NCBI GenBank assembly: GCA_037179385.1
Contig: CM074200.1
Coordinates: 31,809,884 to 31,873,883 of the forward strand
Direction: 5' to 3'
From: Holothuria scabra
Lineage: Eukaryota; Echinodermata; Holothuroidea; Aspidochirotida; Holothuriidae
Length of the DNA: 64,000 bases
Below the pieces are notes generated by a model, which did no database searches, was not told the origin of the DNA, and was given only the letters and a program-made list of their open reading frames with translations. A program made the position numbers and the translations under genes. Of this stretch, positions 6,839 through 63,570 are shown piece after piece (the first letter of the stretch is position 1; each line of letters begins with the position of its first letter).

Positions 6839-9711
6839 ATGCGCATCTGCCCTACGAAAATCCTAAGCCATCTTTCGTTAAAAGATAATGACAAAAGTTC
6901 CAAATAAGGTGGTCACTGCACCTTTTATCATTAAAGACACACGTTTACATTATGTTGCAAACAGAGACCTCACAAAAACCGAGGGGATACACTCCATTCT
7001 CCTGGGATCAATCAGGGAGTTACAACTCTCTGGACCAATCATCAAAGTCATCTTTGAACTTCTGCTCTGACAAATACCTGCGTGCTTGATGTTGTGAGTG
7101 TGTGACGGTCGTCACTCATTTCATGATATTTAGACGGACGAAGTTGTCAAGCAATAGTTTAGTTAGCTGTAGTTCTTTCTTTGACCTCGAATTTAATAAA
7201 CTTATGAGTCTGTACCCATGAAGATTGAAAGATTGGAGGAATGACTTGTCTGTTGTGCGTTAACATTACCAAACATTGGAATTTAAAACATTAAACAACC
7301 GTTTGAAAAGAAAATTAAACTGCATAACAAAACTTATTAATGTAATACAATATATGATATTACGTTCCATGTGCAGTGAAAATGTATTAACTTCATTAGC
7401 CTGAAGCTAAAGAAGCACATTCGGAAGTTGAATGTAAATTTTATCAATATTCTTTTAAATGAATAAATCTTTAACACATCAAAGATAAATTGATTTAAAA
7501 AAAAGAGAGAATTAGAAGCACTGCGAAGACTGCAAATTACATCTTGTTGCGTGCGGAAGATAATGATTTATGGAGTATTGTATTTTTATGTATGCAGCAC
7601 ATGGCTAATGGGAACTTGGTGATGCTATTTGAGCTCATTCATTACACATGGCATGATGTTTCGTAATGTTGGTACGGCTGTTAGGAACATGCAATACGTT
7701 TTTGGTAGTACTATAGTATTATGTTTTTAGTTAAACTACACCTTATCGGAAATACATTCAAACATTGAGGTTATCAAATTTCAAGATACGTGCTATTTTT
7801 AATTACAATTAATAAATTCACGGGAAACTTTGCACATTTTAAGAACTTGAAGACAACTAGAGATAATTCTTGAAAGATTTCAAACGTTTGTATTTGAATT
7901 AAAAATATATTATTGCTATATGGATGGAATGGTGTAACTATATGTAGTAGAATATATATCCCTGAAAGATGAATAGCAATCTTACGTAGAACCTCTAGGA
8001 AGTGGTTTTTTAAGTGGACGAAAAATTAAAGATCATCCAGCGCCCTCTCTCTCTTATGATCAAAGTCAGATAAGCGTAGAGGTATATATATCAATTGGGT
8101 CAATTTCTTTTGTCATTTTTTGAGCTCTACACAAAATGTATCACATTTGTTCCCTTAACGACGAATTGTTGGTCAACTTGATCATTGTCTTGACCTTTCC
8201 AGTACCTCAATTGATACACTACGTAAACGTTTCTCAAACCAATTTTTTTATTTGAACACTCTCTTCGTCCAGGTTTAGAAAATTTTTCTTTATTTTTAAT
8301 GAATGATTATGCACTGAATATTACAAGGAGCTTGTAACCATCATATGCATTTTACCTTCGACCCAATGAAGGGTGTACTCAAGGAGCCAGTCCAGAAGAA
8401 GAACTACACATTGTTAAACTAATACATGCATGCAATTTTGTATTATTATCTAGTTTCCAAACGAGATATGTTATAGTGTACTCCAGTCTCAATATACATC
8501 CTAAGGTAAATTTGTATCATTTAGGGGATAAATGCGAGGGTGCCCAGGTTTCAAATGTAATATAAGACCGACGATGACGCCATCACAGAAGCTGAGCGCA
8601 CCGAGGCGACATCTGAGGTCCGCTGCCTCTGATGACGTCAAATATTTTCACTTCTTTTTTTTCTTTAGTTCATTGAAAACTCAATCGTCAGTTAGTTGGA
8701 TGAGATTTAACTACACGCCAACACGAATTTGTTATTTAGTGTCAACCAGATAAAGAAGTAAAGTTTAAACAGCGAGCTCTTATTTGAAGGGCAAAGCAAC
8801 AGAAATTTTAATTTAAGCTGATACTTTTAAGATCCACTTAAAGGAATGAAGATAAGCTCTATAATTGCCGCAAAAGTATTTACTTCCTTTTCTCGCGGCA
8901 CCGCTTCAATTTCATTCCTGGAATACCATCTCTTTCAAGGCAACTAATCCTTACATAAACGGCTCATGCAGAACATACTTTGATAGGTAGGTCTGTACCG
9001 CCAACAGTTTAAGAGCAGATGCAAAAAACCTGCCGGTCCTACTCTAACCAGGGAGTTGCTAGAGACTCTAACAACTCCTCGCTGTAACCGGAGCAGACGA
9101 CACATGTCTTTTGTGTCATTTAACTAATCCTGTACAAGCATAATGGAAATGCCAAGAACGATACAAAAGACAGATTACTGAGTGACCTTGACGGCGTAGA
9201 CCTCGTTTCAAAGCGTTCTGCCTCTATCCAAACAACTGCTCTATGGTTTAACGACGCCTGAAGATACGGTTCAAGTTCGGTTTCAAGTACAGGTCAAACG
9301 CGGTGTTAGTCCTTCTCCTTAGTCGCCAAATTGCTCCAGGAGGAAAATACAGCAAGCATATTCCACAACCCCCAGTCCATGGGGGAGAAATTATGGAAAA
9401 TGAAATGCCCAAGTGAAATGGTACCTCTTTCAGCACAATTACGTTTAGGGGATGTTGTTCTGAAAAGGGTGCCATTTCACCTCAGCATTTCGCTTGCGTG
9501 AGGCGGAATTTTTTAGAACTTAAGGCAGAAATTGGCCCTAAATCATTGTTACTAAGTCATTTCATAAGCTCTTCAGTCTTGAATCTTACCGCTTTTGCAT
9601 TTGAAATTATTCACTCGTATTGCTGTTATGTAGAATGAAGTTATCATCTTAAAGTGTAGCCGAAGTAAAAAAAAAAAAAAAATCAAAAAAAGAAAAGTAT
9701 CAAAGAGCATG
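6839..9711. other. Gene-free sequence
   Basis: Nothing recognised. Short chance frames occur at 6888-7070, 8532-8753 and 9248-9475. Around 9665-9690 lies an A-rich run next to the long-TIR element. Confidence 0.55.
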
Positions 9712-10178
9712 AAAAATGAATTCTAATAGTTCAACTCCTATCGTCACAGGACACACCGGAGCTGAGATATAAAATGTTGAAGTTTATTCACTCAACTTAA
9801 AATGGGACACTGCGCAATAATTTATGTTATTGTTGTTCTACTCCAGTTACAATCTTTTGTATTTCTTTGTTTTTCTGCAAGTTACTGCATACTTGTACCA
9901 GGGTGTGAGTAGCACTCTTACTGGTATGGTGTGAGTAGCACTCTTACTGGTATGGAGTGATGTAATTAATTAGTGCCTTCTCTGTGTACCCTGCTATACA
10001 AGTAAACAGAAAGTGTCCAAGATCAAGGGAAACAAAGCAGGTTGTGTGAGTTGTACAACAAGAAAGTAATTATTGCGCAATGGGCCAATTTGTTTTAAGT
10101 GAATAAGTTTCAACATTTTATATCTCAGCTCAGGAATGTGCTATGAAGATGGAATTTAGACTGTTAGAATTCATTTTT
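9712..10178 (+). mobile_element. Long-TIR element, copy A
   Basis: About 467 bp with inverted ends of roughly 85 bp. The left end reads AATGAATTCTAATAGTTCAA and passes through AGCTGAGATATAAAATGTTG; the right end is its complement through CAACATTTTATATCTCAGCT to TTAGAATTCATTTTT. No open frame of note. The interior holds a perfect 26-bp tandem duplication at 9903-9955. Relatives at 15961-16570 and 62847-63287. Confidence 0.75.
9903..9955 (+). repeat. 26-bp tandem duplication
   Basis: The unit GTGTGAGTAGCACTCTTACT plus GGTATG occurs twice in direct succession inside the long-TIR element. The other two copies of that element have a single, diverged unit at this place. Confidence 0.8.
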
Positions 10179-12526: not shown

Positions 12527-12696
12527 GGGAATAAAGTCAATGGTGCCCATGTCTCTACATCAGATTCGAACAGGCTATGACGTCACGCATATGGGCTGAG
12601 AGACCCGAGGCGAAGCCGAGGGTCTCTGCCTATATGCGTGACGTCATAGCCTGTTCGAATATGATGTAGAGACATGGGCACCATGACTTTATTCCC
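12527..12696. repeat. 170-bp near-perfect palindrome (foldback element)
   Basis: The left arm (12527-12595) and right arm (12628-12696) are inverted copies with one single-base indel and about two mismatches: GGGAATAAAGTC at the outside, then CCCATGTCTCTACATC, TTCGAACAGGCTATGACGTC and ACGCATAT. The 32-base centre is itself a hairpin, GAGACCC..GGGTCTC. No coding capacity. Confidence 0.9.
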
Positions 12697-15560: not shown

Positions 15561-15960
15561 GTATCAAAATTTGGACTTGCTCAAGTAAATTCTCATATTT
15601 TGCAAGAAAGTTGAAACATTTTCGAAATATGGCAAGGTAAGGTCAAAATCACTTCACGTATTGCAAGAATATGATATTTTTTCCCCATTCAAGTTTAACT
15701 TTTGTTTGAAATATACAAGAGTCGTCGTCAAATAAGACGATTTATAGCTTGACGGCGGCAATCTTGGTGCGCCTTTTTTGCCCGGTCGGTGGCGACCACC
15801 TACGGATAGGACATACATGTTACATGCTATGTCCATGTATATAAGTCCGTGGTAATTAAAGACCAATCATTTCATAATTTGAAGGTTTGTTATACTCACA
15901 AGGTACATCTTGAATTGTATAACAAGTCAAAAAATTCAAAAATATACATTAAACAGTATG

Positions 15961-16570
15961 AAAATACGAACTCTTACAATCCAACTCCGATCTTAATAGG
16001 ACATTCTGGAGCCAATATATAAATTGTCGAAATTTATTTACCTAAAACAAATTAGTCCATTACGCAATAATTTATAGCTTTCTTGTTGTAAAACTCACAT
16101 CACCTGCTTTATTTCCTTTTAAAATCAAAAAGTTTTTAATGGCCTTGAGCACTTCCTGTTTGCTTGCATAGCATGTTGCACAGAGAGGGCTTAATTAATT
16201 ACATACATCAGCCCATGAGACCAGGAGTGCTATCACACGTTGGTACAAGATTAAGTGTCTTCAGAAGAACAAAGAAATACACAGACCGTAATCGGAGTAT
16301 ATAGTACAACAATGACATCACAAATTATTGTGCAATTTACCATTTAAATTTGAGTGAATTAACTTCAACACTTTAAACCCGCACAACCAATGGAGTAGGG
16401 AAAACAAGCCAATGATCCACAACTGGACAAAAGGCTGTGTCCTGCGCGGTCGGCTTGAACTAATAGGTTGGACAGTGGGCCGTAAAACTCCGTCTAACTA
16501 ACTCAATATTTAAAATCTCAGCTCAGGAATTTCCTATGAAGATGTGAGTTGAACCGTTAGAAGTTATTTT
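15961..16570 (+). mobile_element. Long-TIR element, copy B, with an internal insertion
   Basis: Starts near CGAACTCTTACAATCCAACT and ends in the complementary GTGAGTTGAACCGTTAGAAG. Compared with copies A and C it carries about 140 extra bases at roughly 16370-16510, interrupting the right inverted end just before ATCTCAGCTCAGGAATTTCC. Confidence 0.65.
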
Positions 16571-16741
16571 GTATGTATTTTAATAATATATATGTTATGA
16601 GTTTTGTCTTGAGGTGCACTTTAATATCTCTCCATGGGACCTTTATTCTTTGGAAATAAGAGCTCCTGTGAGGCCTTTTTAGCTAACGTTTCAGTATATC
16701 TTTTAAAAAATATGTTAAATTCCTCGGTTGCAACCCTTGAA

Positions 16742-21143: not shown

Positions 21144-21269
21144 GCACTGTTTAACAAAAAAAAATTCCTAACTGGCTAACGATAGCCCTAATCCCTAACT
21201 CTAAAAAAGAACATAATCGATACAATATAATGGCAACAGCTAATCAAGAAATACCTTGTTAAACAGTAC
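21144..21269 (-). mobile_element. GCACTG MITE, copy 2 (inverted)
   Basis: Same family as the units at 6706 and 36968, in reverse orientation: it opens with GCACTGTTTAAC, an A-run and TTCCTAACTGGCTAACGAT and closes with CTTGTTAAACAGTAC. Confidence 0.75.
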
Positions 21270-24200
21270 GCATTTACCCATTCCTTCTTCACAAAACTAG
21301 TCGAAGAGGTCAACAATTCTTTAAATTTTTTCAGTCTCTTAAAATTTTATAGCATCCATGGTCTAACTCAAGTTACTGCTGACTCATAAACTGTTAAAAA
21401 GACTCAAAATCGCTGTAAACTTGCAGAACACAAAATGAAGAGAAATACAGAGGGAACAGAAGAGGTTCTGGTAGTAACTTTCCAGAACGTTTTAACTGTT
21501 ATTTATGTCATTATTTTTTGTTCTGTAAATCCATCGTAATTTCTCACAGTGTGGCAAACACGGCCGGGCGGAAAAAATAGATATTCGGGGAAGAGAGACT
21601 GATTGGCAGGAAGAATATGTAAGCGAAGCTTCAGTCCCGGTTAGCCCTAAGCAGAGAGTTGTCAGACAACTCCCTGCTCTAAGCATACAAAAATCCTTTT
21701 TAAACCCCCAAAAGGCAGGAAAGTTAGCACTTTCCGGGTGTTCTAAGATTCAAGTGGATTTTTACTGATCAATGTTCGTGGTCCCGACATCTTGAGGGTT
21801 AGGCAATTTTTTGACCTAGTTTCTGATACTTTTATTGGGAGCTAAGAAGGCTACCGGCTCAGTCCAAACCGTCCATCTCTCATAACTCGGTCTTTTAGTA
21901 CAGTGCTGTAAAGCTCTTGGAAACTTATTCACTTTTCAAGTCTGAGCTATGTCTGTGGTTGACTGAACAAGAGATGCTTAATTATGACTTTAAAAGATTT
22001 ATAAAGCCAATGAACATTTGCAACTCAGTACCAAACGACCGTTAAGTCTGGATCACCAAAAATTTGTTCCTTTCGCTAATAGCTTGTAGATCGTCGGAAA
22101 TCATAGTTGTACCATACCATTCACACAACTTCCTTATTAAAGGGTTGAACTGACCGAGTAGATGAGTAACACGTGATTAGTGGTTCATTGTTGCTCACTG
22201 AGCTTTTGTAATCAAAAAGAAGTTTTTGAACTTTTCAAGACTGAAACTAGTTGATAAATGACTTGAGTCACGGAGGTGAAGATGGACTGAATTACGTCAT
22301 AGGGAATAAATAGTGACATCAACAGTAGGCAATTCCACGCATAGAGAGGTCAACGGGATACACTCCCTAAGACAGGAACTACACTTCCTTTGTCAGGGAA
22401 TGAACCTTTACAATTCTCGTGGAGCTAAGATATGGGATGTATTTTGTTTTATCTTTACTTTCATAATGATCGGGACTTAAGCCTATTTGGTGGATATTTT
22501 GAATAAACACACTTTAGACTGTCAGGCGGACAGGTTTTTATTTTGCAATACTAAGGACAATATTTAAGGGCAGATATTTGATGAAATCTGTTCCAATCTT
22601 CCCAACTCAGTAACTTTTAGCCCTTGTCGAGAATGTTGTCATCTCCTCTTTAAGCCTAACGGTACCATACCCCTGTCCACCTTATAGAAAGGTAGGACAA
22701 AGGCAAAGTCTGCTAGTTGACTGGTCCACCCGAAGGCGCTTCAGTCAGACAGGCGATCGACTCCGTCGGCTGGACAACTGATTTTAGTGGCCAGCCTTTA
22801 TGGGAAATGGGAGGGAAGTCAAGGTTCCCGGAGAAAACCCCAAGTACATTTAAGCGGGATTCAAACCAAGTGAACATGTGAAACACATTGGCCCACAGAA
22901 GCTGAGATAGATCATTCTGTCTCTCGGCGACCCAGATAGGTGAGAATCAAAAGAATTGCACAAAACTGGTCTGTACACTGTGACGCTATAGCTGTATTTG
23001 TAACACGTAATATTCATTATGCAATATTCTAACGAAATATTTATTAACTATGTTGTGTAACAATGGGGCTAAAGGTCGGATATAAGCTGTCCATCAATTC
23101 TTCAATTCCGGAATTCTTCGTGTACGAAAACGTGAAAGATTCGATAGTGACCATTGACCAATAATGACAAATGATCCCGTGTTTCCGTTGAATTCAAGGC
23201 CTGTGTTATCTCCTATGTGAAAGGTCACATGATTCGGTCATTACCTTAAGTGATGGCCAAGTGATTTCACATAAAGTTATCGTGCGAACAGTTACATTTC
23301 ATTTGAAGCTGATTACTTGTGCAAAAAACACGGTCTGGAGTGTAAAAATTAACGTGAACTTCTTGAAGTTTAAGTGAGATTAGCGTTAGAGAAAGGGTCA
23401 CATTAAAACTTGGAGGTGTTACTGGCAATGATATTGAACGGTAAGTTCTGATTTATGCAAATGCTCCTAGACTTGTTGAGATTATCCTTGACAAACTACT
23501 TAAATGTGGTTCTTCCCTTTTGTTGTAGCTGTTCTTTCATTTCAATACATATAGCAACAGTCAAGTCTCGTAAACCTCTCATAATTGGTTTATTCAAAAT
23601 AGTAGTAAAAACAAACAAACAAAAAAAAAATCATTTAGACGCAGGAGCTTCAAAACTAAAGACGTGCCGCTGCATGGTTAACTCAGATAACCCAATTGGG
23701 CTTGAGTCCTTTAAAACAACGAGTCTTATGGAAATGAGCTGTAGGGATATACTTATTCTGGCCATCTCAGTTGCAAGATTTCCTTAAATCAAATGAAATG
23801 GTTAATCATAGCACTTTGTACATTTTCAGATACAACGGAGGTGAGGTCCCCAAAACTGAACGAGATACAACCCCGCTTTTTTTTTTCCCTACGACTGACA
23901 TTGCTATGCAGTAGATATAAACCAAAGACTAAACATGTTGTAGTTGACGGCAAATCGATCCATGTATAAATCACTTTTTCCCGGAGTTTCCATGAACACA
24001 TTCAGAATATAGACACATCTGAACAATAAGACGTCGGAAAATAAGGGTTTCACCTCGGTAAATACATACTAGTATGAGGGTCCTTTCGTACACATATACA
24101 AACAAAAAAGTACAATAACGCAAAAGTTAAAAGTCTGCAAATTAACAGTTCTCCTCTTCTTTATTTTTCCGCCACGGACTCAGTCCCACTCGCACATCCC

Positions 24201-29372: not shown

Positions 29373-29828
29373 TTCCTTAAAAGACATTTAAAAGCGGCGG
29401 TCACGTCGTTGTGTTCTTTACGGGTGTATACAGATTGTAAAAAGCATATAAATTTCCATTTCCTGCTTATTCAGCCTAGTCAGAGGATCTTCAGTTGTAA
29501 TAAGGTCCACTTTTTATGTACTCAAAAATTTATTCGGTTTTATAATTCTCTGAATTCTGACTCGGTTAAGAATTCTTTTGAACCAGCATGAGAGGGCATG
29601 GTATACCGTACCTTATATACCCTCCCCGGTCTTCAGCTCACTGTTGGAGTAATCGCGAGGTTTTTGGTGGGTGTTTAAACAAATCGTAAAATTCTTATAA
29701 TCGATACAGCGGGCGGAATACATAGTGTTTCTATTTCAAATATCGACGAATCCAGTTGTTAAGCAGGAAGCAAGCCGAACCACTGTCAACATTATGGGCC
29801 TACTGCTTTTACCTTGTGAGACACCGAA

Positions 29829-29875
29829 CTTCTCGGTCTTTTGGCTAAGATCATGTGTAGTATCTGTTCTTTTCA
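29829..29875 (+). pseudogene. Truncated U2 snRNA 5'-end copy
   Basis: These 47 bases match the highly conserved 5' region of U2 snRNA (CTTCTCGG..CTTTTGGCTAAGATCA..GTGTAGTATCTGTTCTT) with about three differences, including the branch-point-pairing GTAGTA. The match stops abruptly: the stem IIa, Sm site and 3' stem-loops of U2 are absent downstream. It is therefore a 3'-truncated pseudogene or an snRNA-derived head of a retroelement, not a functional U2 gene. Confidence 0.8.
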
Positions 29876-32082
29876 TCCAGTCTAGCATGTAGCCATACAT
29901 GACAGACCAATGGCGAAATGGTCTGAGGGCCGTGAGGCTGATCAAGTGTTGTCCTTTAGTGGACGAATACCTTCATCGGGGAGCAGTTTATAGTTTGGTT
30001 TCGTCGAACGGCCCTTTGCCAAACGGAAGGGAAGACTTTAAAAAAAGGAAAATGAAGCTGTACATAGTTAAAGATTGGAGTTCTTACCTACACAACCAAA
30101 CGTGTTTGAGGATTCAAATCTTTCACTTTTAAGAGATGTATGGAAGTAATGTCATTTATCGTCCTGCTTTCGTGTAAACCATGGGAAATCCTTTAAATGT
30201 TGACTTTACTTCGTTTTGTGATATTTACAAGTCGTAACAAACATATAAAATAGTTCGTGGACGGGTTCGCTTCATCTAGTGTTAACGTATAGACGAATCC
30301 GATTAACGCTTGTTCTTAGTGACTGTGGGCGGCCATTAGTGGGGTCCATCAGCCTAAAATCGTCTTTATTTATTGTTTACATGACTTTCAAACCTCATAT
30401 TCAGTGAAAATGGAGAATTTAAGAAACAAACTAGTGTACAATCATCCATGATAGAGTAAAGCAAAGAAATTGAAAGATTTAAAGGTGACGGACCCCAGTT
30501 ATGGCCGACTGAAATCAGACCATCACTTGCTGTCCGGATTCGTGTATATTAAGCATTACTGAGCAGTTGAGAAGCTTAGCATTACATCAAATAGGGGTTT
30601 ATTTAAAAATTAAAACAGAAATCTTTTCATTGCTCATAAATCCCATTCGTATAAATCCATCGCTCAATGGATTTTGTTTGATTGTTAATTGCAGAATAAT
30701 CTTGACGATTTTTGATGAATGTAGGACGAAGTTAAATTTAGATGGATCACATTTAAAAATATTTTAATAACTTCCATTCAACATTAATGATGATATGCTT
30801 TTAGTAACGAGATAATTTATACTTCGAAGTGGTCACATACTGTTAACGGTTTTAATACAGAGTGCGTGTTTTTTCGTGAAGGGTAAATGGTAACACACGT
30901 TCTCATCGGTGCAACGTGCTATAACTACACACTGAAACGGAAGAAAGTGCAGAAGGGGGGGGGGGCGTTAATGTGTAGTTGTTTTGAATTCAGACTGAAG
31001 TTTTAAGCAATGGATTTTAGATCCTCTGAAGGAAATTCAATAGATTTCTTGAGTCCTCTCAAGTTTGAACAATAACAAGTCTATATTGTCAAGTGTATTG
31101 TAAAGGGAGCAAATTTAAAGAAAACACGGTGAGCTTCTCGAATTTAATGTCAAGTTGACTCGTAGTTGACCCTTAGTTGTGTTTCTAGAAAGATAATTAT
31201 GTGAAATAACAAGAAAGAACAAGAACTATGAGGAAACCCATCACTCTTTGTAAAGATGAAATTTACTTCACTGATTTCCGTGCACGCACGCGTACGCTTG
31301 TCAACTCTCTGTATATAAGGGAGGAAAAGTACCCCGTGCATCTGCCACCTTACCACACATGGTTACATTGCATGTGAGTGTGTGTGTGTGGGGGGGGGGG
31401 GGGGGTAATGTCATTACTTCATGCTATCTTTAACCTGGAGGCACAGTCCTTAGCATGATTTGATAGTGAATATAGACCTTGTGCATTTGACATCAGTGGG
31501 CAAAAAAGCGCAATCGAACAGTGGCAAATGCGAATAATTAGAAACTCAAAACAATAAATGCATAGAGATATGTACCGAGGAGAGAATACGTTTGTAAATG
31601 TAATCATCGTGAACGCGCGGCTTTTTGTAGCGTATAGAGTGTGCCTAACTTTGTGCCTCTTAAATGACATCGCGATACGTCGATGGCATACGATCTATTC
31701 AAAGCCGGAGACAGTCTGATTCATTGCGCTTGACATGCTGGTGTGTTACATACATGCATGATAGTCAGCCATGAATTTTGTGTGCATTTAATGTATAGCT
31801 GTTTGTCGGATAAGTGCATAAGGTTCCAACGCGAATGCAACGCGCATTCCTTGTGCAGTGTATATTTCAATGACGTCAGGTGACAAAACAATTTCTTTTT
31901 ATTCATCCTAAAGTCCATTCTATACAGATCCTTCGTCTTTAAGAATGGATAACAAATTAACCATTCACATATGGAAACAATGGTATTTTCTGATCTCTGA
32001 GCTTTGAAATTTACAAGGCGAAGCTCTAAATCACTAGGGCCCAATCTCCACCCCACTCCATGATACTTGAGGGTAAATGCTG
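29876..32082. other. No gene found after the U2 fragment
   Basis: Frames of 60-83 codons occur on both strands without recognisable features. A run of nine or more G lies at 30956-30965. Confidence 0.5.
31375..31406 (+). repeat. GT microsatellite followed by G-run
   Basis: A short GTGTGTGTGTGTG run leads into about fifteen G. Length is likely variable. Confidence 0.85.
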
Positions 32083-36270: not shown

Positions 36271-36967
36271 ACCGAGGAGACGAGGCACCATTTTCGTAAC
36301 CTCTATAGTTGTTATCCTTGAAAAAAACCCGGCCACGCGACAACAAATTCGGATCGGATTCCGATTCGATTTTTGCAAACGTTTAGTAAAATCTTCTCCG
36401 TCTCTGGTCGAAGTAACTTGCCAACCAATGTTGTTTTACGCGTACTTACCACAGTACTATAAAAAATAAAACGTGCTAATTATTTTGTGACGTCATGTGG
36501 ACATATTTTCGATGTATGATATACTTTAGCGGACTATGCTGCCCGATAAAACATATGTCGGTGTTACGCACGAAAAAATTAGCATTTCACTTCCACAAAT
36601 CTGTGGCATTTTCTACCCAGATATGGAGGAGATTTTAACGAAAATATACAAACATTGGATTGGAATAGCATCCACTAGTTGCAGTGTGATCGCGACTTAA
36701 ATGCCCTATATAGGTGTTTGGGGTTTGTAACATTCCTTGCCGTGGTTTAAAATCAAAAACAAATATTAAAAGGACTTTAAACCTTAAACAAAACTGTTCT
36801 TTTTAAAAATCTTTTACCATGCTCGTTCAGCATTTCAAAGGTTCTGGTTTTTCAATAAACGAGTGAACTTTGGAATGTTCATGAAATAGCTGGTAATGGC
36901 CCTCCGAAATAGATTTGGTTATTGTGACGGCCTGAAAACTATCCTGCAGTCCGGTTTGGGTTGATGC

Positions 36968-37103
36968 GCACTGTTTAACAAGGTGTTTCTTGATTAGTTG
37001 TTGCCATTGAACTGTATGGATTGTATTTTTTGTTCGGGTTAGGGATTAGGTTAGGGATTAGGGTTATCGTTAGCCAGTAAGGAAATATCTTGTTAAACAG
37101 TGC
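36968..37103 (+). mobile_element. GCACTG MITE, copy 3
   Basis: The best preserved member, 136 bp: ends GCACTGTTTAACAAG and CTTGTTAAACAGTGC are near-perfect inverted repeats. The interior has GGTTAGGGATTAGG repeated twice, which could be mistaken for telomeric sequence. Confidence 0.8.
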
Positions 37104-39020
37104 GAATCGCCCCTCCGGTTTAGCAATCTACGCTATATTTGAAGTATTCTTCCAGTGATGCTGCTTTTGAAAAGATGACAATGCCACGTCTTGATGGCGA
37201 TCAAAAATTTGAATATATACCCCTCTCAAAATAATCTGGCACTTCAACACCAAAATAGCGGAAAACCGATATACCATTGCAATATGACTTTAGAATAATA
37301 ACATTCGGAAGAAATGTCACTTATTTTTTTTAAGAACTAAAGTAAAACAATATAACATTTCGTGACGGGATTTAAAGCAGAAACAAATATCAGAAATACC
37401 TTTAACTTTATTCCAAGTTGTTGTATAAAGAAATGTTTTTTAATATTCGTTCAATATTTCAAAGGTTCTGTTTTTGTCAATAAACCAGTGAGTTGCAATT
37501 GTATTGTAATGGCCAATGAAACTTGAAGACAACCTTCAATTGATGCAAAAATATCATGTTAATATTGTTAAAAACCATTTTAAGGAATCGTTGCACTTTG
37601 CGAAAAGGGTTCCTAGTTTTAATTTAGTCATTGCATAATTTTATATTACTAACTCTTTCATCTCACAAGATAAAACAGGAACAATATCAACAACAACAAC
37701 AAATTAAAAATAAATATTTTGCGTGTCCTTTAAAATGATATGATTATTCATTATTTTACTTCATCACGTTCAAGTTTTATACATCTATTCCTTTAAAAAA
37801 TCCAAGGATCATATCGTCATGTTTTCAGAAGAAGTCTATATCAAGCAAAAAATTGCCTTTTCTACTTCAATCCATAGTTCATGTAATGCATGCGTCAATA
37901 TTCATCAGAACTTGGTTTGATGCTCTTAAAGTCTAGCTGCTGTAAAAATCCTTTTTACATCGTAAAAACGTTGCGCTGTTGTTATAAAATACTTCCAGCA
38001 AAGGCTAATCCAATTTCACTCAGCATGAAAAAGTTATAAATATATTCAAGTTGTGGTTAAATATAATACATGAAACCGAATTGCAAACTTTGGAAGAAAT
38101 ATCATAATTTCTCGTGTTTTGTACGCATGCTAATTGTATTATATGCTTAACAGGGACTCATTTAGTGAAAACGTCTCTGTATTCTCCAGCAGAAGTGAGT
38201 AGATTTGTAAGCCTACAACTTATTGGTTAAATTGGGGCCCTATCAAGAATCACATGCTACAGATTTGCCAAAACCCCTTAATTTGTTGTTGGGCAATCGT
38301 CAGACAAATAACATCTTGCGAAGGTCTTCAGATAGAACATTCAGTCTCACAGAACAATGACAACCACCTGCCTTTAATCAACACTTTTAAAAGTGGCTGA
38401 AAATTTACAACACAAAAATAAGAGAGATATAAAGGTAACACAAAATTGTGGCAAACATTTAAAGAAATTTTCTGTAATCTCTAAATAAAATTCTTATTTT
38501 TCGTTCTGCAAAATTACAGCTATTTCGAACATTTCATTTAGTAATAATTATAGTCCAATAGGTGTTTAGTTCTTGCGATCTCTTTCATGTTTTTCCTCTT
38601 TTATTTAAAACGTTCAAAATTTACATCAAGGAAAGGGTAAATAGGCCTAATCTATTGAACTGATTTTTGAATCAATTTTTTTGCCATAGAGTTACTTTGG
38701 ATAACATCCTGTCAGCCTGTTCTGTAACATTAAAACGACTGTACAAACCGAGCTTGAAAGTTCCAAAATTTAGTACCGTAGGAGTGTCGAACCTCTCCAA
38801 TTCATTCACAGACTTTTCTATTCTATTGCCAACTCTGACGACCGTCAGTTCCATGAGATGGGAGAAACCAGCAAATACTCATCTTATTTATTTTTATTCT
38901 TTGTAAAGTTTCATCCATGGACCAATTTCGTTGCTCTGTCTGTCTATTGAATATTATATAGACATGTACCAAACATAAAATTCAAAACACTAACAGGTAT
39001 TTTTCTATTCTTCTTCACAG
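37104..39020 (+). other. Region upstream of the kisspeptin coding exon
   Basis: Very AT-rich. No convincing TATA box or first exon could be assigned. The paired frames 38667-38906 (+) and 38672-38854 (-) overlap on opposite strands and neither shows a domain. Confidence 0.4.
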
Positions 39021-39046
39021 ACAAAGCTTGAGGAAAACCCTATGCA
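39021..39046 (+). other. Kiss1: 5' UTR part of kisspeptin exon, after a splice acceptor
   Basis: A pyrimidine-rich tract ending in TTCTTCACAG (39011-39020) is a good splice acceptor just upstream of the start codon, so at least one non-coding 5' exon probably lies farther upstream. An ATG at 39042 in another frame precedes the chosen start by 5 bases; it runs only 19 codons to a stop and does not give a signal peptide. Confidence 0.55.
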
Positions 39047-39134
39047 ATGGACGGAAAAGTTTTTCCAATCTTGTTGTCAATGCTCTGTAGTACAGTTCTA
39101 AGCGTCTCAATTGAAGAAACGGAGTTACAGAATG
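39047..39134 (+). CDS. Kiss1: Kisspeptin-type neuropeptide precursor, coding exon 1 (signal peptide)
   Basis: This exon encodes residues 1-29 plus the first base of codon 30. It begins MDGKVFPILLSMLC and continues with a hydrophobic stretch to about residue 20, which reads as a secretory signal peptide with likely cleavage near Ser-Val-Ser/Ile-Glu-Glu. The exon ends at G39134 followed by the donor GTAAGG. The intron is phase 1 and 3,952 bp long (39135-43086), ending in GCTCCACAG. Joining G to the AC that opens exon 2 gives Asp30 and continues the only open frame of exon 2. The ATG at 39047 is chosen because it alone yields a signal peptide in the frame of the amidated peptides. Confidence 0.88.
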
Positions 39135-42100
39135 GTAAGGTATCCTTCTGTTGAAGGGCATTCATTGTGAGATTGACCACGAATAGACTTAGTCTTGTGA
39201 TGTGTTCGTCATTACTGTTTTATTGTAACCAAAAGAGACCCGAATCAATTTTAATCCCATGATTCTTTGTAACTACTATTTGCTTAATTTGCGTGACTGT
39301 CACCAGGAAACTAAATGGAAAGGATACCTGGGCTTTGGCATTAAAGTATTAATCATTCCAATATCTGCGAGATCTACGTTACCTAAGAAATTAACTACCT
39401 AACTTTAAAACTTTCTCTCGTAAATGACTCGGTTTAATGTGCCGTACATAATCTTCGTGAGACGCTAAATCCATGACGCTTTTCCTTCCTAATCATCAAG
39501 GAAATTGATTATTTTTTATACGTTCTCCCATGAATGGATATTCGTATTCGGATGTTGGGATATTCGCATGAATACTGCGGAAAATATTATATAATATAAT
39601 ATTTTGGTGGTTTTCCATTATTCTTTTGAAAGTTAGTATTTTTAAATGCCAAAGAAGGGAAATCAATGACTAAACTTATCACGCAAAATTGCTTCTAGCG
39701 TTTTACCTACTTTCAAAAATTTTAGTCTATTGGATTTAGTTGTCTGTGTAAATTTAAAATGACCTTAGCACCAGAAGCCCTTCAGGTAAAGTTTGAAGAC
39801 CTCGCCAAATGCGCAATAAATAGTTCACGACCTCATGAAAATCTTCGGATTGGTATCTTAATCTCGTTTGGAAAAGTTCAAAAATTCTCCCTTTTTGTAT
39901 TTATAGCTTTAGGCGAGGAAACATTGCACGAATCCTGTGAACCTAATTAAAAACTTATGCGAAGATTGCGTATAAAACTTGTTGGTACGTTTTCAGGTAC
40001 GGCAGGATATAGAGTCTTAAAACATTGTGTACTGCCACTAAATTAACCAGTTTCAGTGACAGTCAGTGATCAAACGCATGTAGTCGGAATGTTCCCTCGG
40101 ATTTTCAGTTTAGAGGGGATATGAAGTTACTCAAAGAAATGTTACAAGTAATAGTAAAAAGAAAACATGTTTTTCTGTTATTTCTGTCTATGTTGTGAAC
40201 CGATCTAAAATTAAGCTGAAGTAGAAATCCATTGTGAAGGGGTTCAAATGTTTCAGATGAGAAAATAAAACTTAGCGAAACTGGTACTTGCATTCATTAA
40301 GTTATTCAAGTTAAATGTAAGAAAGTCACATTCACTTTGATTTCTTTATGTTTCTAAATAAGTAACATTACTAACATTACCAGCGCACCAAGTTTTAAAC
40401 GCCCTACTTTCAACAAACGTATTCATCAGGGATGTTATGACCACTTCAAGCAGCCACAAAAGAGAACTGTAAGAGCCTATGGTTGCCTTAAAGTATACTC
40501 TTCGCAGGAAAAATCTCAAAACATAAAGAACACTGGCACCTGATAAAAAGAACATTTTGCTTTACACTTTGCCCATGTTTTTGTTTTTATTTTCAATGTG
40601 GATCATGTTTCAAAAAATAAGAGAAAAGAAAAAAGTCGACGTGGAAGCATTGTAAGAGTTTCCTTTAGTGATGGAGAAACGTGCTTCACCTTGAGAGATA
40701 CGTATGTTTTAATGTATGTATAATTTGATGCAATTCATACATTTGTATAACGAAGGCATCAACTCACACGTATGAACTGACCCGTTTGTGTCAGTGACAA
40801 CTACTGCGTTAGACGTCCTTTCTAAACAAATTCGTGATTTTCAGCTGTCGTCTGTGTATCTTCCCGTCTTCCTTTTAACTGATAGATGACAACTTTTTTG
40901 GGAATATTTCATATACTGTTAGAGAATGCTGCATATATTATAAGCGGCGTACCACTTGAAATGTTCCTCATATAACCGATGCCATGAATTAATACTTTAT
41001 CTACATTATCAGCCAAACAGGCCGCCAACAAAACAATTTCGATTTCGTTCTTTGCTCATCAAATTTCCTGCATGGGATTTTTGACGAAAAATCTTGTTAA
41101 ATCAAATCGATAGATTACCATTTGAGGCTTTTAACAAAAAAAATGAAAGAATAAATAAATTACTTTTACAGTTAACCTTTTAAGCCCAGTCACTTGTGAC
41201 ATTTCGAAATCTACACATACACTGAAGGGCGTGGGTTAGGTTAAGAATATTAGAAAAATGAAAGTTTGAAATGTAGTGGAGGCCAAAAAAGTAATAATGC
41301 CCGCAAAAACGTCCTTCAAATCTTTTTCAATCTGAGGTCAAAGGGCAAGAAACTCCACAATTGCTAGGCTGTGTTTCTAGCTCCTTTATCTGGAGATATC
41401 CAGAACCCGAGATATCCAGAACCCTTCATGAAGCTTATTCTTGTGAAGTTAATAAATTGGGATCATGTGAAATAGTCATCTGAATATATTTTCAATGTAG
41501 AGGTTTTTTATATGACTTCATACTAGGCCTTCTCCCGTTGGGCATGTTGGAGTTCACGTAACTACATAGTGAACCACACTGGACACGCTTTGCTCGATGT
41601 TTTTGTAAGCACGGCGCATTTCACAATATTCACTGTACAGTGCGTTCAGCTCAAACCCCCATGTAATTGTACTGGTTAATTAAAGTTCATATATAATTAT
41701 ATGCTTACGAAGTGAACAATGTAACCGCCAAGTCTAAATTTTACACATGTATATGTTTGTCAAATCTAACGAAAACTTACAAGTGTAATAGGAGTGCTTT
41801 ACCCTTTGCACTCACATTGATTCTCAAAGTATAAAATACGTGAACGCGTCCTGTAAAGCATGACTATACTAAGTCTTACTTTCTGCTGAGGCAAAAATCC
41901 ATTGTCATAAAACACCAAAATCCGTAGAAATAAGTCCATGTGAAGTTCAATGCATGGTAACCCATTGCATGCTGATTTTAACATCACATCTTTAAAATAT
42001 ATAAAAGAAAATGAAAACGAAATTGTGTGGAATACAACGTTTCAAAATTAAATGATGAATGTTAACATATTTTCTTAAAATCGGTTGGTTCTAATTGTAG

Positions 42101-43086
42101 GTTGACCTTTGGCATGGTGAACCATTTGTTCAATTTCCGACTGACCAGGGAATTTCTGTGAGACGACTCCCTTACTTGACATACCCCTTCTTCATCGTAA
42201 CTTATAATTGATCCACTACAGTCACTCCTTGGCGTTCCATTCACGGTCATCCTATATGCTGTTTGTCCTTTCAAATCGATACCAATGCTACCGCTAAAGT
42301 CGTTTTAAGATCCTATTCCTCATACATTTATTGACAGTACTTAGCATTACTGTACGCCTTTCAGGCAAAATATATCGGTCTTCAAGTAGGAAAATTAGAC
42401 TAATGCAATTTGTCCACACTACCGTTGATGGACTTTTCAACAAGTGCTCGTTTGTAGGAAATTAGGCCAAAGATCATTTGGAATTTCACTATAGAGAATC
42501 TTTCCATTTTTTTACAGAAGAAGGCGAAGTCGGAAAATTTAATATTATCGTGTGCATATGACATTTGCACAAATCCTAAGGCTGAATTGACAGTTATTTT
42601 ATAACAGTGTCACACAGACTATACTAAACTGAAACAGCGCCTCCAACTAAGAGATCACTTGTGAGCATTTTCATCTGGAAATATTCATCGGAAGGCATCC
42701 TCTTTGTGCAAGACAAATATATCAATAACTATTGAGCATTAACGTGGAGCTATTACGTAATAACTCCATGATATTAACTGAAACAATTCATTTCAATTTT
42801 TTGTCCAAATTTCAATCATGATTAAAGGAACACCATCCTAGGTTCTAGGCTGTCGAACCCCTAATCTTTAACCTACAACCTTTTTAAGCAAAGTATTGCA
42901 TATCTTTGTAAAATATTTATCCCCGTCAACAAGCAGGGTGTGATATGTAATATGTCAGTTTTATTTATAGTGAGGCTTTTACGTGAAACGTTGGTGTCGC
43001 AAGAGTCTTGTTTACTTAATTTTAGAAGTAACAAATATTCATTAAATTTTGTACAACTTTAATGACTTATTTCCTTTGCTCCACAG
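39135..43086 (+). other. Kiss1: Kisspeptin gene intron, phase 1
   Basis: The intron is bounded by GTAAGG (39135) and GCTCCACAG (ending 43086). It is AT-rich and I see no other gene in it. The short open frames inside (for example 39759-39950 +, 40346-40555 -, 41799-41987 -, 42062-42274 -) have no recognisable domain. An in-frame ATG at 43062 lies in this intron, so it is not the true start of the exon 2 reading frame. Confidence 0.8.
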
Positions 43087-43535
43087 ACTATGGGGAGTCT
43101 GGCTCAGAGGGAAGGATTTTGAAACTCCTCTCACAATTGTTGACAGACGAAACGAACCAAGACGGGTACGGAGGTGGGGAAGAAGTGATTTACCCAGATG
43201 TAAATATACCAATGCTTGACAAATATCCAGCTGAAAATATTGGTGTGGATGATTTCGACGTAGACGAGGCCAAGGCATTGATTTTGAAATCTCTCTCTAG
43301 CAATGGAATACCCCTGGATACGAAACGAGCTGGTACCTTGGATTGCTTGGAGCAGTCTTGCGAAGGCGTTGAGCGGCGAAGACAACCTAGTCGGAACGCC
43401 CATTATAGGACGCTTCCATTTGGCAAGAGGGTACAAAGACAAACATATTCCACGGTCAGAAATCCTCGAAAACCATCATCGAAGAAAACAAGGGGAAGAT
43501 TAAATCCTCCACCTCTGCTTCCCTTCGGAAAATGA
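43087..43535 (+). CDS. Kiss1: Kisspeptin-type neuropeptide precursor, coding exon 2 (both mature peptides)
   Basis: This exon completes a 178-residue prepropeptide. Residues 30-108 are an acidic spacer. Lys109-Arg110 precedes the first peptide, residues 111-141, which starts AGTLDCLEQSC, ends NAHYRTLPF and is followed by Gly142-Lys143-Arg144 (amidation plus dibasic cleavage). Cys116 and Cys121 can form a disulfide. After a basic linker (145-163, ending Lys162-Lys163) the second peptide ends LNPPPLLPF, followed by Gly177-Lys178 and the stop. Two amidated peptides, a long one with an N-terminal Cys pair and a shorter one, are the known arrangement of echinoderm kisspeptin-type precursors; vertebrate kisspeptins end in RF- or RY-amide, here it is LPF-amide. 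Such peptides are released from neurons and act on GPR54-type receptors. The length is close to what I recall for sea cucumber precursors (about 180 residues). A less likely alternative is another LPF-amide family. Confidence 0.92.
43329..43421 (+). other. Mature kisspeptin-type peptide 1 (31 residues, predicted amidated)
   Basis: Residues 111-141, released by Lys-Arg on both sides with Gly142 as amide donor. It holds Cys116 and Cys121 four residues apart, as in ambulacrarian long kisspeptins. An internal Arg-Arg-Arg (126-128) could be cut to release a shorter C-terminal form ending RTLPF-amide, but in long-form kisspeptins the chain is usually treated as uncut. Confidence 0.8.
43488..43526 (+). 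other. Mature kisspeptin-type peptide 2 (about 13 residues, predicted amidated)
   Basis: If Lys162-Lys163 is the cleavage site the peptide is residues 164-176 (TRGRLNPPPLLPF), with Gly177 as amide donor and Lys178 as the last residue before the stop. If that site is skipped, the peptide would run from Val145 and be 32 residues long. The N-terminal boundary is therefore uncertain; the C-terminal amidation signal is clear. Confidence 0.7.
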
Positions 43536-52413: not shown

Positions 52414-53742
52414 CTGATTAAAAGATGCAGAACGAAAAGAGCATTTGTATTATTAAAACTGTGTTAAACACTTTTAGAGGTCTTATAGGTCTTTCGCCAC
52501 TTCAATAAGAATTTCAAAGGCGGGAGCGTGTGGGAGAAAACAGAAATAGAGGAGGGAGCACTGACTCTTATAAACTGTATCTATTTCAGCAAAATCGGAA
52601 TGGGACGGGTTACGTGTGTGAGAGGTAAGCATTGACTGACGAAAAATGAACCATGAACGCCACCTTACGGTTGTCCTGTTGCCCTAAGGTCACTTTTGTA
52701 GACGTGAAGTGTTTGGCATGGCACAGTTTGCCAACCTCTCACAGCGGGAATTTAAGGAATAAGGTTAGCATAAATTCAAACTTTTGCCCAATTTTTTAAG
52801 GAGCCTTTGGGCATTATCTGGAACATGGAAATATGATTGTGAAGGTGTCGTTAAGTCCCACTACAATTCCATGTAGGCTTTCCACTGAATCCCAACACAC
52901 TGTCACTTCTGTCACACACTGGACTTCAGATTCATTAAAGCCTCGAAGATACAAGTTCTACGATAACACGCATATGATATCAAGGGGAATCTAACCAGAG
53001 GGAGCAGACCGAGTTCATTGTTCAGTTCATCGCAGCAAAAAAAAAAAAAAAATCTCTGAAAAGCGGAAGCATTGGGGGCGATAGAAGTGTTGCGCATGCT
53101 GACAAGCCCTTGGTCCATTTTATCAATACAAAGGGTTTTTTTTGTGACTCCTGCTATGGTAAATGCATGTCGAGATATTTTTAAAGGGAAGGGGAGCACG
53201 TCATTTTCTGCCAGATATATGAATCTTGTCCGAAATACTATTTCAATAATGAATCGCCATCGGTTGTTCGGGGCCTACAGAAAATTTTGAAAAATCGCTT
53301 TCTCTTTGACAGCCTACAGGGAATGGATTTCCCTAGCTTGAATACAAAATTTATGCAGACGTAATTAAGCGTCGTGTTGCAATAAAAGGCAGCATGAAAT
53401 AAATATATTGAATATTCCTCTACATTTGCACTACCGTACATGTTAAATAATTAATTTAATACAATTTGGGGGTTTTCGTTTTTACTGATACGGCAAAAGG
53501 GGCTGAGGCCGGGGAAGCCTCTCCCCGGGGTCAAAGAGTGCTCACTCATTTGGACCTCAAAGATATTCAGAAGACACAAAACACCGCCAGTGTTGTGACC
53601 TTCAACATCCATGGTACCAATTCATTGGTATAAATATCTTCTTGTTTGCGTCGCGGCAATTCATTTTAAAGCTCACTGTCTCTGCCCAGGTATCAGACGA
53701 TTGAGTTGGCAGCACAATCAGTCCAGGGAAGCGTTACTAGTA

Positions 53743-55138
53743 CGGAATGCCAAATGGTTCAAAATATCCAAACTTGCATCGAACTATCCAAACTTAAAAT
53801 CGACATGTCCAAAATTAACACTGAAGTTTCGAAAATAAACATCGAAGCATCCAAACTTTCACTGAACTATCCAAAGTAACATCGAAGTATCCAAGCTTGC
53901 ACTGAACTATCCAAACTTAAATCGAAATGTCCAAAACTAGCATTGAAGTATCGAAAGTAAACATTGAGCTATCGAAAATAAAATTGAAGTATTCAAACTT
54001 AGATTGAACTCTCCAAACTTATTTCGACATATCCAAACCAACACTGAAGTTTTGAAACTAATATCGAGATATCCAAAGTAGCCTAAACATCGAAATATTC
54101 CAATTTTCTAACGTTATATCCAAGATCCAAGAGCTAAATGAAAACGATTGGAACTTGTCTGCTAACTTCAAGTCTTTTTCGACACACTGGCTTTTAAAGC
54201 GTAAACAGGGGTGACAATTGGTTCATATAACGAACTCAACATCCATATGTCGAAGTGAGTCGATTGCGTAATCGACCGAGGATTGTACTAAGCACGTTGC
54301 GGAATTTTGCGCACGTTACATAGTGTAAGTGGCTGGGTGCGGTGTACGTGCATATTTGCTGGATCGATGTTATAATTTACTAGCTCACTGAATATCGTCA
54401 GTACTATAGTAGGCATGGTACTTAACGTTCGATCGGGACGGCCGACCACGCATAGCCTGCGTCATTGCTTAGCCTAGCCTACGGGTCTCGGCATATGTAA
54501 TACTAGTAGTAGAAATTACTGTACGTAGCCCGCCTAACACCCACACTACTATACAAACACTAACACTGGTTGCGCCTAGCCGGAATGATTAGGCTAGGGT
54601 AGTCCTAAAAGTTAGCCTAGGCATTAACAGCGTGGCGGTCCGCAAGTATACAGCACCCGGCCTAAGCTTCATGGGCTGAGGGCGCGTCGTCGATAGGATA
54701 CATGCCACAATACACTCCTTGTGCAAATTTGGGGCAACATAAACGTGATGAGTGCAAAGCACCATAGCCAACCAGCGATGTAAGAGTTCGATATATCAAT
54801 CATTTGGCGCCAGGCTATACAGTTCGGAGAATCCAAACGGACTTGAAGTTATCATGCTTATGTTAATCGTCTTGATGTAAACTTTGGATACTTCGATGTT
54901 CAGTTTAGACGTGTCGATGTTAGTTTGGATAGCTCGATGTTAAGTCTGGATTCTTCGATGTTAGTTTGGATACTTCGATGTTAAGTTTGGATACTTCGAT
55001 GTTAGTTTGGATAGTCCCATGTTAGTTTGGATACTGCGATGTTAGTTTGGATAGTTCGAAGTTTAGTTTGGATAGTTCGATGTTAAGTTTCGACACTTCG
55101 ATGTTAAGTTTGGATATGTTGAACCATTTTGCACTCCG
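53743..55138. mobile_element. 1.4-kb TA-flanked element with arrayed 20-bp repeats as inverted arms
   Basis: TA sits at both borders (53741-53742, 55139-55140). The terminal sequences CGGAATGCCAAATGGTTCAA and (inverted) CGGAGTGCAAAATGGTTCAA match. Inside each end lies an array of a degenerate 20-bp unit: CATCGAAGTATCCAAACTTA in about 17 diverged units at 53760-54115, and its complement TAAGTTTGGATACTTCGATG in about 12 units at 54885-55125. The middle (54130-54880) has no credible gene. It is non-autonomous; superfamily uncertain, with Tc1/mariner suggested only by TA. It lies in the intron between exons C and D of the minus-strand gene. Confidence 0.8.
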
Positions 55139-55505
55139 TATAATAACCTCCATGATCAGTCGATGTACCCCGCTTGGACATGAAGAAGGGTGGAGTTTGT
55201 AAACCCTTTACATGGAGGCGCTTATGCAATGTGATATGAAATGCGTATGCGTAGATCTGCATTTTTGTAGAATTGCGTATAACAGGTTAATTCATTTGAG
55301 GGGGGGGGGGGGGGAGTTTGGAGGAGCCTCGGGAATACTACTTTTCAACTGCATCTTAATCTTACTGCTGTATTAATTTTCTCTAGGTAATCTCCCCGGA
55401 CCCCAGTTTTAGAGCATGTAAGGATGAATACCCCAAACTCACAAAGCAACGATAGCTCAATCCAAACGATTTAGGATTTAAACATTTTCTAAACACTTTT
55501 TGTCC

Positions 55506-61244: not shown

Positions 61245-62846
61245 CTGAAATAAAACAAAAACAGAGTTCGTAAATTCCCTTCCCATTTCAGGAACATATA
61301 TGCATAATTGACAAGTAATTTTGGTAAGATGTGATATAAATTCTATTTTGGTGATTGTTTTTCGCTGGACTGACGGAAAATCAGAAAATTCAAAAGATGC
61401 AAAGTACGGGTAAGCAGGAAGAGTTCTTCGCAACTTCGCAACATCAAGGCCTTGAGTTTTCAACAAGATAAAGCCGAGGTTAAACTAGAATGAAATTGGA
61501 TCGGATGTCGATCTAATATTTGCTACTTCAAAATTTTATCTCTGGTCTAAAAGAGCCAAACGGTGCAAGAACATAACCTGCATTAGACGTCTATAAAAAT
61601 GAAATGTCACCTTAATTTTTCAAGACTTAGCATCAACATACAGGTATTAGAGGACACGCGTAGTCCGATAAAAGTTGTCTGATGACCATATATGATATAA
61701 ATGATAACAAAAAGTCACCCAAATCAGATCGAAATCCGATGCGAAAATTCGTCAATCATAGCAAGCATCGTTGCCGTGTGTCCGCTTAGGATCTTCCCAA
61801 GCAGCGGTCGTGAATCGTGTCTGAATGGTTTCAATTGCCTTATTAAAGTAAAAGTTCTGGTTGGGAGAATACAAACTGTCTGCGTGGATTAGGGGCTTGC
61901 CCTATAAACAGACTTTTTAGCAAATTTTTAAAAGTGCAGTTCCCGGCTCTCTGTACTGAACTCCCAGTAAATATTTCCTTGTTGAACCTTTTCTTTGTAT
62001 CAATCACTTATACGTTATACATCTATTCAAAAGTTCAGACACCAGTGATTTTATTAAGGGTTTGTTGCATAAACCTTATAAAATCTGGAAGACAATTTTG
62101 GTAGAAGACAGGTCAACCTCGATTGCTCATATGAACAAAAAATTGGGTGTGGGCTATTTCTTTAAGACCGCCCAGTCACTCACAGTTGAAGTGGGGAGAA
62201 TAAGAAGTTTCTGAATTAGGGATAGGCCTATGTGCCTTATGAAAAGAGTTGTTTTGGCACATTATTCAAAATTCAGTCTGAATTGTTCTCTTATCAGCTC
62301 CTTATGGAAAATATCCTATTTTCCAGTCTCTCTAAATATATCGACCGTTAAATGCAGACCTTTATTAACCATGCTTCTTATTCAAAATCTTTATCTCATT
62401 ATCCTTGACAGAAGAACCAGATAAAAACATTTGCTTTATGAATTTTTCTCTTTCTCTTTAATTACTGCAATTTATAATCCTCTTCGTTTGGTATGTATTG
62501 CGGTTGTTCTTCCGTGAAACCTCTTATCCCATGTTTAACCTGTCCCCCTCATTTCCACTCCCAGGTAAGCTTTTTTATATTCTTACTTCAAATAGAATTT
62601 CAGTTTCTACACTTTGATGTGTTTTATTTTTCATAAAAAACTTACGTAAAAACTGTTCGTTATCGGAGCAGTGGAAGAAGCTTTTCTTGGAGAGTCATGA
62701 TTAGGAATGTCTGTCGTAAGGAAATTTGCTTTTAAAATTATTTGGATGTAATAGAATGCATACAATATATCCTAAATGGGTCCTACTTTCACTTGCAACG
62801 GAATTAATCAAGTCAAAACATTCAAATATATATATAAAACAGCATG

Positions 62847-63287
62847 ACGAATGAACTCTAACAGTCCAACTCACAACTTCATAAGACATTCTTGAACCGA
62901 AGTATAAAATGTTGAAGTTAATTTACTCAGATTTAAATGGGTAAATTGTACAATGATTTGTGACGTCATTGTTGTGCTGCTCAAATTACAATCTTTGTAT
63001 TTTTTGCTTTCTGAAAGTTACTTAACCTTGGACCTGGGTGTGATAGTTACTCTTTATCTTTTGGGGTGATGTAATAAATTAAGCCCTCTTTGCCACATGC
63101 TATGCAAGCAAACCGGAAGTTTTCAAGCTCATAAAAGCGTTCCTAATTTTGAAGAGAAATAAAGCAGGGAATGTTTGAAATAATTGAGTATTGGACTTAT
63201 TTGTTTTAAGTGAGTAAATCTGAATATTTTTTATCTTGGCTCAAAAATGTCTTACGAAGATCGGAGTTGGACGGTTAGAATTCGTGT
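62847..63287 (+). mobile_element. Long-TIR element, copy C
   Basis: About 440 bp, same layout as the copies at 9712 and 15961: GAACTCTAACAGTCCAACTC at the left, ACGGTTAGAATTCGTG at the right, and the shared middle GATGTAATAAATTAA. It lies in the intron between exons A and B of the minus-strand gene. Confidence 0.7.
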
Positions 63288-63570
63288 TTCAAGTTTTTTA
63301 ATATTATTTTTTGAATTTGTTGACTTCATGTACACTTTAACACTAATGTAGATTTTCTACAAAAGAACATCAACGCTAAACGGTATTAGTAAGAGAGAGC
63401 AAACATCAAACACGCAACTAAGGACTAAAATGAAACTTATAGGTTGAAAAATATAGAAAGAAATCCGTTATTAAATTTACCTTTCTGTTTGATACGGTTA
63501 AATCAATGACATAGAGTAGAGTAAGTGTATACATTTCAACTTCAAAATAAACAAAATACCGGACACTTAC

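Follow-up and report, generated by a model that had tools for sequence, protein, structure and literature searches.

Does the window studied here, a 64,000-nucleotide stretch of the Holothuria scabra genome (GenBank assembly GCA_037179385.1, contig CM074200.1, forward-strand positions 31,809,884 to 31,873,883), hold a neuropeptide gene that single-frame calls of open reading frames (ORFs) miss as a unit? A sequence-only reading had proposed a two-exon, kisspeptin-type gene at window positions 39047 to 43535, spliced from 39134 to 43087 in phase 1 and encoding 178 residues. We find that the splice sites are present and that the joined frame is open, and we regard it as very nearly certain that the gene encodes an echinoderm KPP1-type kisspeptin precursor with two coding exons. 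The precursor is likely orthologous to the one published for a sea cucumber, and two C-terminally amidated peptides are likely cut from it. What we observe directly is that the frame stays open across the join, the phase of the intron, and the similarity both to uninterrupted full-length relatives and to published peptides. The parts of the gene described below lie on the plus strand and are given in window coordinates.

Gene structure and relatives of the two-exon unit

The start-codon exon (39021 to 39134) is coding from 39047 onward, for 29 codons plus one nucleotide, and the intron that follows is therefore in phase 1. This GT...AG intron (39135 to 43086; 3952 nt) has, as read in the window sequence, the donor AATG/GTAAGG after 39134 and the acceptor CTCCACAG/AC before 43087, and the residues run on across the junction in the same way in two full-length relatives, P0001 and P0003 (see below). 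Coding exon 2 (43087 to 43535), recognized from sequence and by tblastn, ends in a TGA stop codon at 43533 to 43535; exon 1 contributes 88 nt and exon 2 contributes 449 nt to a complete coding sequence of 537 nt, stop codon included. All predicted peptides are encoded by exon 2 and the signal-peptide part by exon 1, the coding portion of which matches residues 1 to 30 of P0001 at 87% (tblastn). The statement that single-frame ORF calls miss the unit held as well: among the 23 stop-to-stop ORFs of at least 90 amino acids, a 167-residue ORF (43032 to 43535) begins within the intron, and none covers exon 1.

An in-frame TGA lies upstream at 39029 with no ATG in between, making 39047 the first in-frame ATG of the exon; its context has G at both −3 and +4. 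A 19-codon ORF in another frame (39042 to 39101) overlaps this start, its ATG lying 5 bases upstream in a weak context (C at −3 and +4), and could tune kisspeptin translation. The 5′ boundary of the exon is itself a prediction, made from an acceptor-like AG at 39019 to 39020. This AG and a pyrimidine-rich stretch suggest that an additional non-coding 5′ exon lies upstream and joins at 39021. In the gene table of PMC6586643, the entry for Apostichopus japonicus reads "2 (3-4)", which we interpret as two coding exons out of three to four in total. On the 3′ side, ATTAAA or AATAAA signals occur at 44016, 44143, 44496, 45746, 46104, and 46190.

Across the six frames of the window, two L-x-[FY]-G-[K/R/end] motifs occur together in one ORF; in 200 first-order Markov control windows, the mean number of such ORFs per window was 0.005. 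Together with the homology described next (E 1.9e-88), this count excludes a chance origin of the two-exon unit. A search of 5.8 billion proteins with the 178-residue product (130 candidates scored, with an E cutoff of 10) matched only four, P0001 to P0004, each of which aligns as a precursor of this design, either complete or in part. P0001 (181 amino acids, on a 1689-nt contig) is 81% identical over 100% of the query at E 1.9e-88; P0002 is 84% identical over 81%; P0003 (183 amino acids; longest contig, 2019 nt) is 52% identical over 100%; and P0004 is 60% identical over 79%. Counted over shared alignment columns, identity to the window protein is 83% for P0001, 86% for P0002, and 57% for P0004. 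Both P0001 and P0003 run in an unbroken frame from signal peptide to last Lys, with the same exon 1/exon 2 continuity, and since their contigs are no longer than 1689 and 2019 nt, respectively, they likely derive from spliced transcripts. Splicing at 39134/43087 in the host is predicted from this homology. P0004 contains the published peptides AjKiss1a and AjKiss1b letter for letter, as printed in PMC7282810, which anchors the homolog set to A. japonicus. Immediately ahead of the D-Y residues that straddle the window intron, the N-terminal sequence of P0004 diverges from that of the other homologs, as might be expected of an unspliced copy.

Could the locus instead be a decayed or silent copy of a kisspeptin gene? 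We think this very improbable, as we see no damage to the frame, to the splice sites, or to the sites of cleavage and amidation, and the sequence changes spare the peptide parts. Nor did tblastn with five queries find a second kisspeptin copy in the window (lowest E besides the gene itself, 0.51).

Placement among echinoderm neuropeptide families

In echinoderm KPP1 genes and vertebrate kisspeptin genes, as described in PMC9400282, the coding sequence is divided between two exons and the signal-peptide exon is followed by a phase-1 intron, and two exons within the ORF are likewise given for the A. japonicus and vertebrate genes (PMC7282810). Echinoderm KPP1 precursors yield two peptides with L-x-F-NH2 ends, and a Cys pair is found only in the first (PMC9400282, PMC5627052, PMC4772807). 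The window gene combines the phase-1 intron, a predicted signal peptide, two L-x-F-Gly-basic ends, the Cys pair, and an Asn in the core of the first peptide. The motifs named in the sequence-only reading are where it had placed them: LPFG-KR occupies residues 139 to 144 and LPFG-K-stop residues 174 to 178, and the Cys residues are at 116 and 121, with none beyond 121, so that the pair belongs to the first peptide only. The Asn, N133, lies at position −9 of that peptide. In addition, the gene is related to a member with proven receptors, P0004 (60% over 79%), and the two A. japonicus peptides inside that homolog, together with an intron phase that agrees with KPP1 gene structure, bear out the kisspeptin identity.

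Two other families were considered and rejected. An L-type SALMFamide precursor would belong to a related family whose L-x-F-NH2 peptides act on kisspeptin-type receptors; both window peptides do end in L-x-F-G, and SALMFamide genes likewise place signal peptide and peptides on two exons (PMC9400282). The intron in those genes is in phase 0, however, and the L-type precursor of Asterias rubens holds seven peptides (PMC9400282), as opposed to phase 1 and two peptides here, and the published peptides within P0004 are kisspeptins. We thus give this assignment almost no weight. The same is true of a KPP2-type precursor (formerly described as tachykinin-like or cholecystokinin-like), which in A. 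rubens also yields a ligand of a kisspeptin-type receptor but has a single coding exon and G-x-F or G-x-x-F ends (PMC9400282), whereas the present gene has two coding exons and L-P-F ends; a KPP2 identity is exceedingly unlikely.

Several observations weigh against placing the gene in the KPP1 family, or against parts of that reading. Pfam gave no kisspeptin match for the protein, its sole hit being a subthreshold SpoVR_C (17.2 versus 27.6 bits). Two further searches aimed at starfish and urchin precursors, one with a profile of the five-sequence alignment (4997 candidates; 4 matches) and one with residues 105 to 183 of P0003 (6 candidates; 3 matches), returned only members of the known set. 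The exon junction is supported by two relatives, P0001 and P0003, the exon 1 part being absent from P0002 (which has no N-terminus) and from P0004. AlphaFold, run on the five-row alignment, gave a model with a mean pLDDT of 44.8, which is very low confidence and is the outcome expected of a neuropeptide precursor. Finally, of the NxxSxxLxF-NH2 core shared by starfish and human peptides, the window's NAHYRTLPF keeps the N, L, and F but has Tyr in place of Ser. The same replacement occurs in A. japonicus, and it is because the core Ser is absent that we file the gene under the echinoderm family rather than under vertebrate kisspeptin proper.

The KPP1-type reading is sharpened by comparison with individual systems. 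The A. japonicus precursor (AjKPP or AjpreKiss; 180 amino acids; GenBank MF401998 and MH635262, as printed) shares with the window gene two ORF exons, a signal peptide, the C-x4-C motif in a long first peptide, a short second peptide, and LPF-NH2 at the end of both. It differs in total length (180 versus 178 amino acids), in the first peptide (32 residues in A. japonicus and 31 here, where the Gly before RQ is missing), and in the second peptide, which is an 18-mer after RK in A. japonicus and a predicted 13-mer after KK in the window. For A. japonicus a single kisspeptin gene has been reported (PMC7282810). P0001 and P0002 have RRRQPSRNAHYRTLPFGKR and the KK site in common with the window protein and differ from it ahead of LLPF in the second peptide, where they read RIVVPQR and RIVVPQHQR, respectively, and the window reads RLNPPP. 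Two coding exons, the phase-1 intron, and the Cys pair of the first peptide are shared with ArKPP1 of A. rubens (149 amino acids), in which the Ser of the core stands where the window has Tyr. With vertebrate KISS1 and KISS2 the gene has in common the two coding exons and the phase-1 intron after the signal peptide, and with HsKISS1-10, as printed in PMC7282810, the N at −9, the L at −3, and the terminal F; unlike them, it has LPF in place of LRF, lacks the core Ser, carries a Cys pair, and encodes two peptides per precursor.

The gene is an added member of a family already described in sea cucumbers and starfish as well as in brittle stars and sea urchins, and for the A. japonicus peptides the matching receptors have been identified. 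Work is cited for H. scabra and Holothuria glaberrima (Peptides 2018) and for Holothuria leucospilota (Gen Comp Endocrinol 2019), and this same precursor may already have been published there.

Predicted peptides, their processing, and the linker between them

The precursor opens with a likely signal peptide, MDGKVFPILLSMLCSTVLSVS (39047 to 39109; the cleavage point is approximate), as judged from hydropathy and from the signal peptide of the A. japonicus precursor, which is predicted to be 23 residues long (PMC6586643). Hydropathy reaches 2.26 at residues 8 to 20, the top four 13-residue hydrophobic stretches begin at residues 5 to 10, and the N-terminus of the 81%-identical P0001 is nearly the same. 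An acidic, variable propeptide follows (residues 30 to 108; 43087 to 43322; its first codon is split by the intron), delimited by composition and alignment: residues 1 to 108 hold 21 acidic and 6 basic residues, and only 16 of the 70 columns at residues 39 to 108 are invariant in the five-sequence alignment. The predicted long first kisspeptin (43329 to 43421), 31 residues with Cys116 and Cys121, sits between KR and G-KR and aligns with the AjKiss1a stretch of P0004. It is followed by an amidation Gly and KR cleavage site (43422 to 43430; invariant in all five sequences), by a conserved linker, VQRQTYSTVRNPRK (residues 145 to 158; 43431 to 43472), that is a candidate peptide, and by the predicted second kisspeptin, TRGRLNPPPLLPF-NH2 (residues 164 to 176; 43488 to 43526), recognized after the KK site from sequence and alignment. 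A second amidation Gly and a terminal Lys, again both invariant in all five, precede the stop (43527 to 43532).

In the mechanism we propose, the exon 1 signal peptide would route the precursor into the secretory path, where convertases would cleave four basic sites (KR109-110, the R126-R128 cluster, KR143-144, and KK162-163) and a carboxypeptidase and an amidating enzyme would convert LPFG-KR and LPFG-K to LPF-NH2. The products would be the disulfide-looped 31-residue first peptide and/or a C-terminal form of 13 to 14 residues, plus the short second peptide. By analogy to the A. japonicus peptides in cultured cells, both peptides would be ligands of the host's own kisspeptin receptors, which would be Gq-coupled.

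The shorter first peptide, QPSRNAHYRTLPF-NH2 (residues 129 to 141; 43383 to 43421), is predicted to start after RRR. The A. japonicus precursor has a Gly between RR and RQ, and cleavage behind RR yields its first peptide as GRQPNRNAHYRTLPF-NH2, a product seen by mass spectrometry (PMC6586643). That Gly is absent from the window protein and from P0001, P0002, and P0003, in which the three Arg are contiguous. The residue behind the Arg run is Gln in the window, P0001, and P0002 and Lys in P0003. Because the absence of the Gly places Gln directly behind RRR, the 13-mer is likely capped by pyroglutamate in the window, P0001, and P0002; among starfish peptides, ArKP2.1 and ArS2.1 are documented to carry this modification. 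The KK site before the second peptide is present in the window, P0001, and P0002 and absent from P0003 and P0004, and the RK at the end of the linker, after which the annotated second peptide of A. japonicus starts, precedes Pro in the window. Pro after a basic site is poorly tolerated by convertases. The second-peptide cleavage site has likely shifted from RK to KK, which would release TRGRLNPPPLLPF-NH2.

In cells, the best ligand of AjKissR2 was AjKiss1a (50% effective concentration [EC50], 1.98 nM) and that of AjKissR1 was AjKiss1b (8.06 nM), and the shortened AjKiss1a-15, -13, and -10 failed to activate the receptors (PMC7282810). The Cys-loop arm is kept in our alignment (13 of 20 columns invariant at residues 109 to 128), which fits the finding that the long form activates receptors and short forms do not. 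Against a working long form stands the fact that the short form is the one detected by mass spectrometry in A. japonicus (PMC6586643). The published accounts conflict: PMC6586643 confirms only the 15-residue AjKP1 by mass spectrometry, whereas PMC9951865, citing earlier work, states that this technique had verified both peptides as amidated. For the window peptides, the computed monoisotopic masses are 3585.743 (31-mer disulfide amide), 1740.928 (RQPSRNAHYRTLPF-NH2), 1567.801 (pyroglutamyl QPSRNAHYRTLPF-NH2), 1475.873 (TRGRLNPPPLLPF-NH2), 1005.601 (LNPPPLLPF-NH2), and 1047.499 (pyroglutamyl QTYSTVRNP); as a control of the calculation, the 3+ ion of AjKP1 came to 609.3275, compared with 609.327549 printed in PMC6586643.

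Does the precursor hold more than two peptides? The linker (VQRQ..STVRN.RK) is invariant in 10 of its 14 columns across the five sequences, as against 12 of 14 for residues 128 to 141, 7 for the Cys arm (111 to 124), 4 for residues 159 to 172 after the linker, and 5 in the best of 74 propeptide windows, and it is bounded by basic residues. The gene might therefore be of the same KPP1 kind and in addition release a third peptide (pyroglutamyl QTYSTVRNP or similar), or the linker might lie within a longer second kisspeptin; we consider either rather unlikely. The conservation rests on only five sequences, two of which are 90% identical to each other, and with the three full-length rows alone the count is 11 of 14 for the linker, 8 for the best propeptide window, and 12 for the signal peptide (residues 5 to 18). 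Two rows have missing or different N-termini, which lowered the five-row counts in that region, and the contrast between linker and propeptide is accordingly less sharp than the five-row count suggests. The Pro behind the RK at the linker's end also speaks against release, and the linker may instead be conserved because it helps convertases to reach the adjoining KR. In the part of the A. japonicus mass-spectrometry table of PMC6586643 that was covered, AjKP1 is the single kisspeptin peptide, and the main text of that paper does not contain the linker string; in the article texts searched (figures and supplements lay outside the search), the string STVRN was not found together with kisspeptin. 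Tentatively, and with low expectation, we put forward the broader proposal that sea cucumber precursors hold an overlooked third peptide (QTYSTVRN, its N-terminal Gln likely pyroglutamate), which would make the gene the source of a signal of three peptides, and that both processing sites were rewired in this lineage (RR-G to RRR and RK to KK), which would give a capped first and a shortened second peptide.

The surrounding window and the meaning of the gene

To look for neighbouring genes, we scanned 20 of the stop-to-stop ORFs that reach 60 amino acids (214 in all) against Pfam; four of them had hits below the curated cutoff and none reached it, and ARAGORN found no tRNA in the window. A U2 snRNA match at 29825 to 29975 (plus strand) scored 47.7 bits against a gathering score of 46; its first ~50 nt are close to the U2 5′ end, and beyond them the sequence has diverged or is lacking, a pattern like that of a U2 pseudogene or of a short interspersed element with a U2 head. 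A foldback-type element of ~1.4 kb (53742 to 55139) has inverted ends of 32 nt (29 of 32 identical), TA at both edges, and subterminal tandem repeats of 20 to 21 bp that point in opposite directions at the left and right ends. A direct duplication of ~260 bp (4672 to 4932 and 5024 to 5285) has copies 93 to 95% alike and 352 to 353 bp apart. Members of a dispersed repeat family at 6695 to 6838, 21155 to 21280, and 36957 to 37114 occur in both orientations and are 79 to 88% alike; two of them carry GGTTAGGGATTAG units, and their ends also pair as inverted repeats. There is, in addition, a near-perfect hairpin at 12540 to 12684 (62-nt arms, 95% complementary, 21-nt loop), and a diverged repeat with inverted arms is present in three copies (9680 to 10178, 15930 to 16571, and 62815 to 63321) that likely represent a small transposon family.

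In vertebrates puberty is under the control of kisspeptin, which the echinoderm precursors link to an ancient deuterostome system. To that link the present gene adds another example of the shared phase-1 intron, along with exact peptide predictions for a sea cucumber. Our comparison also suggests that processing sites move between species, unlike the peptide ends. Should the linker turn out to be a real peptide, tests of the sea cucumber kisspeptin system would so far have lacked one of its signals.

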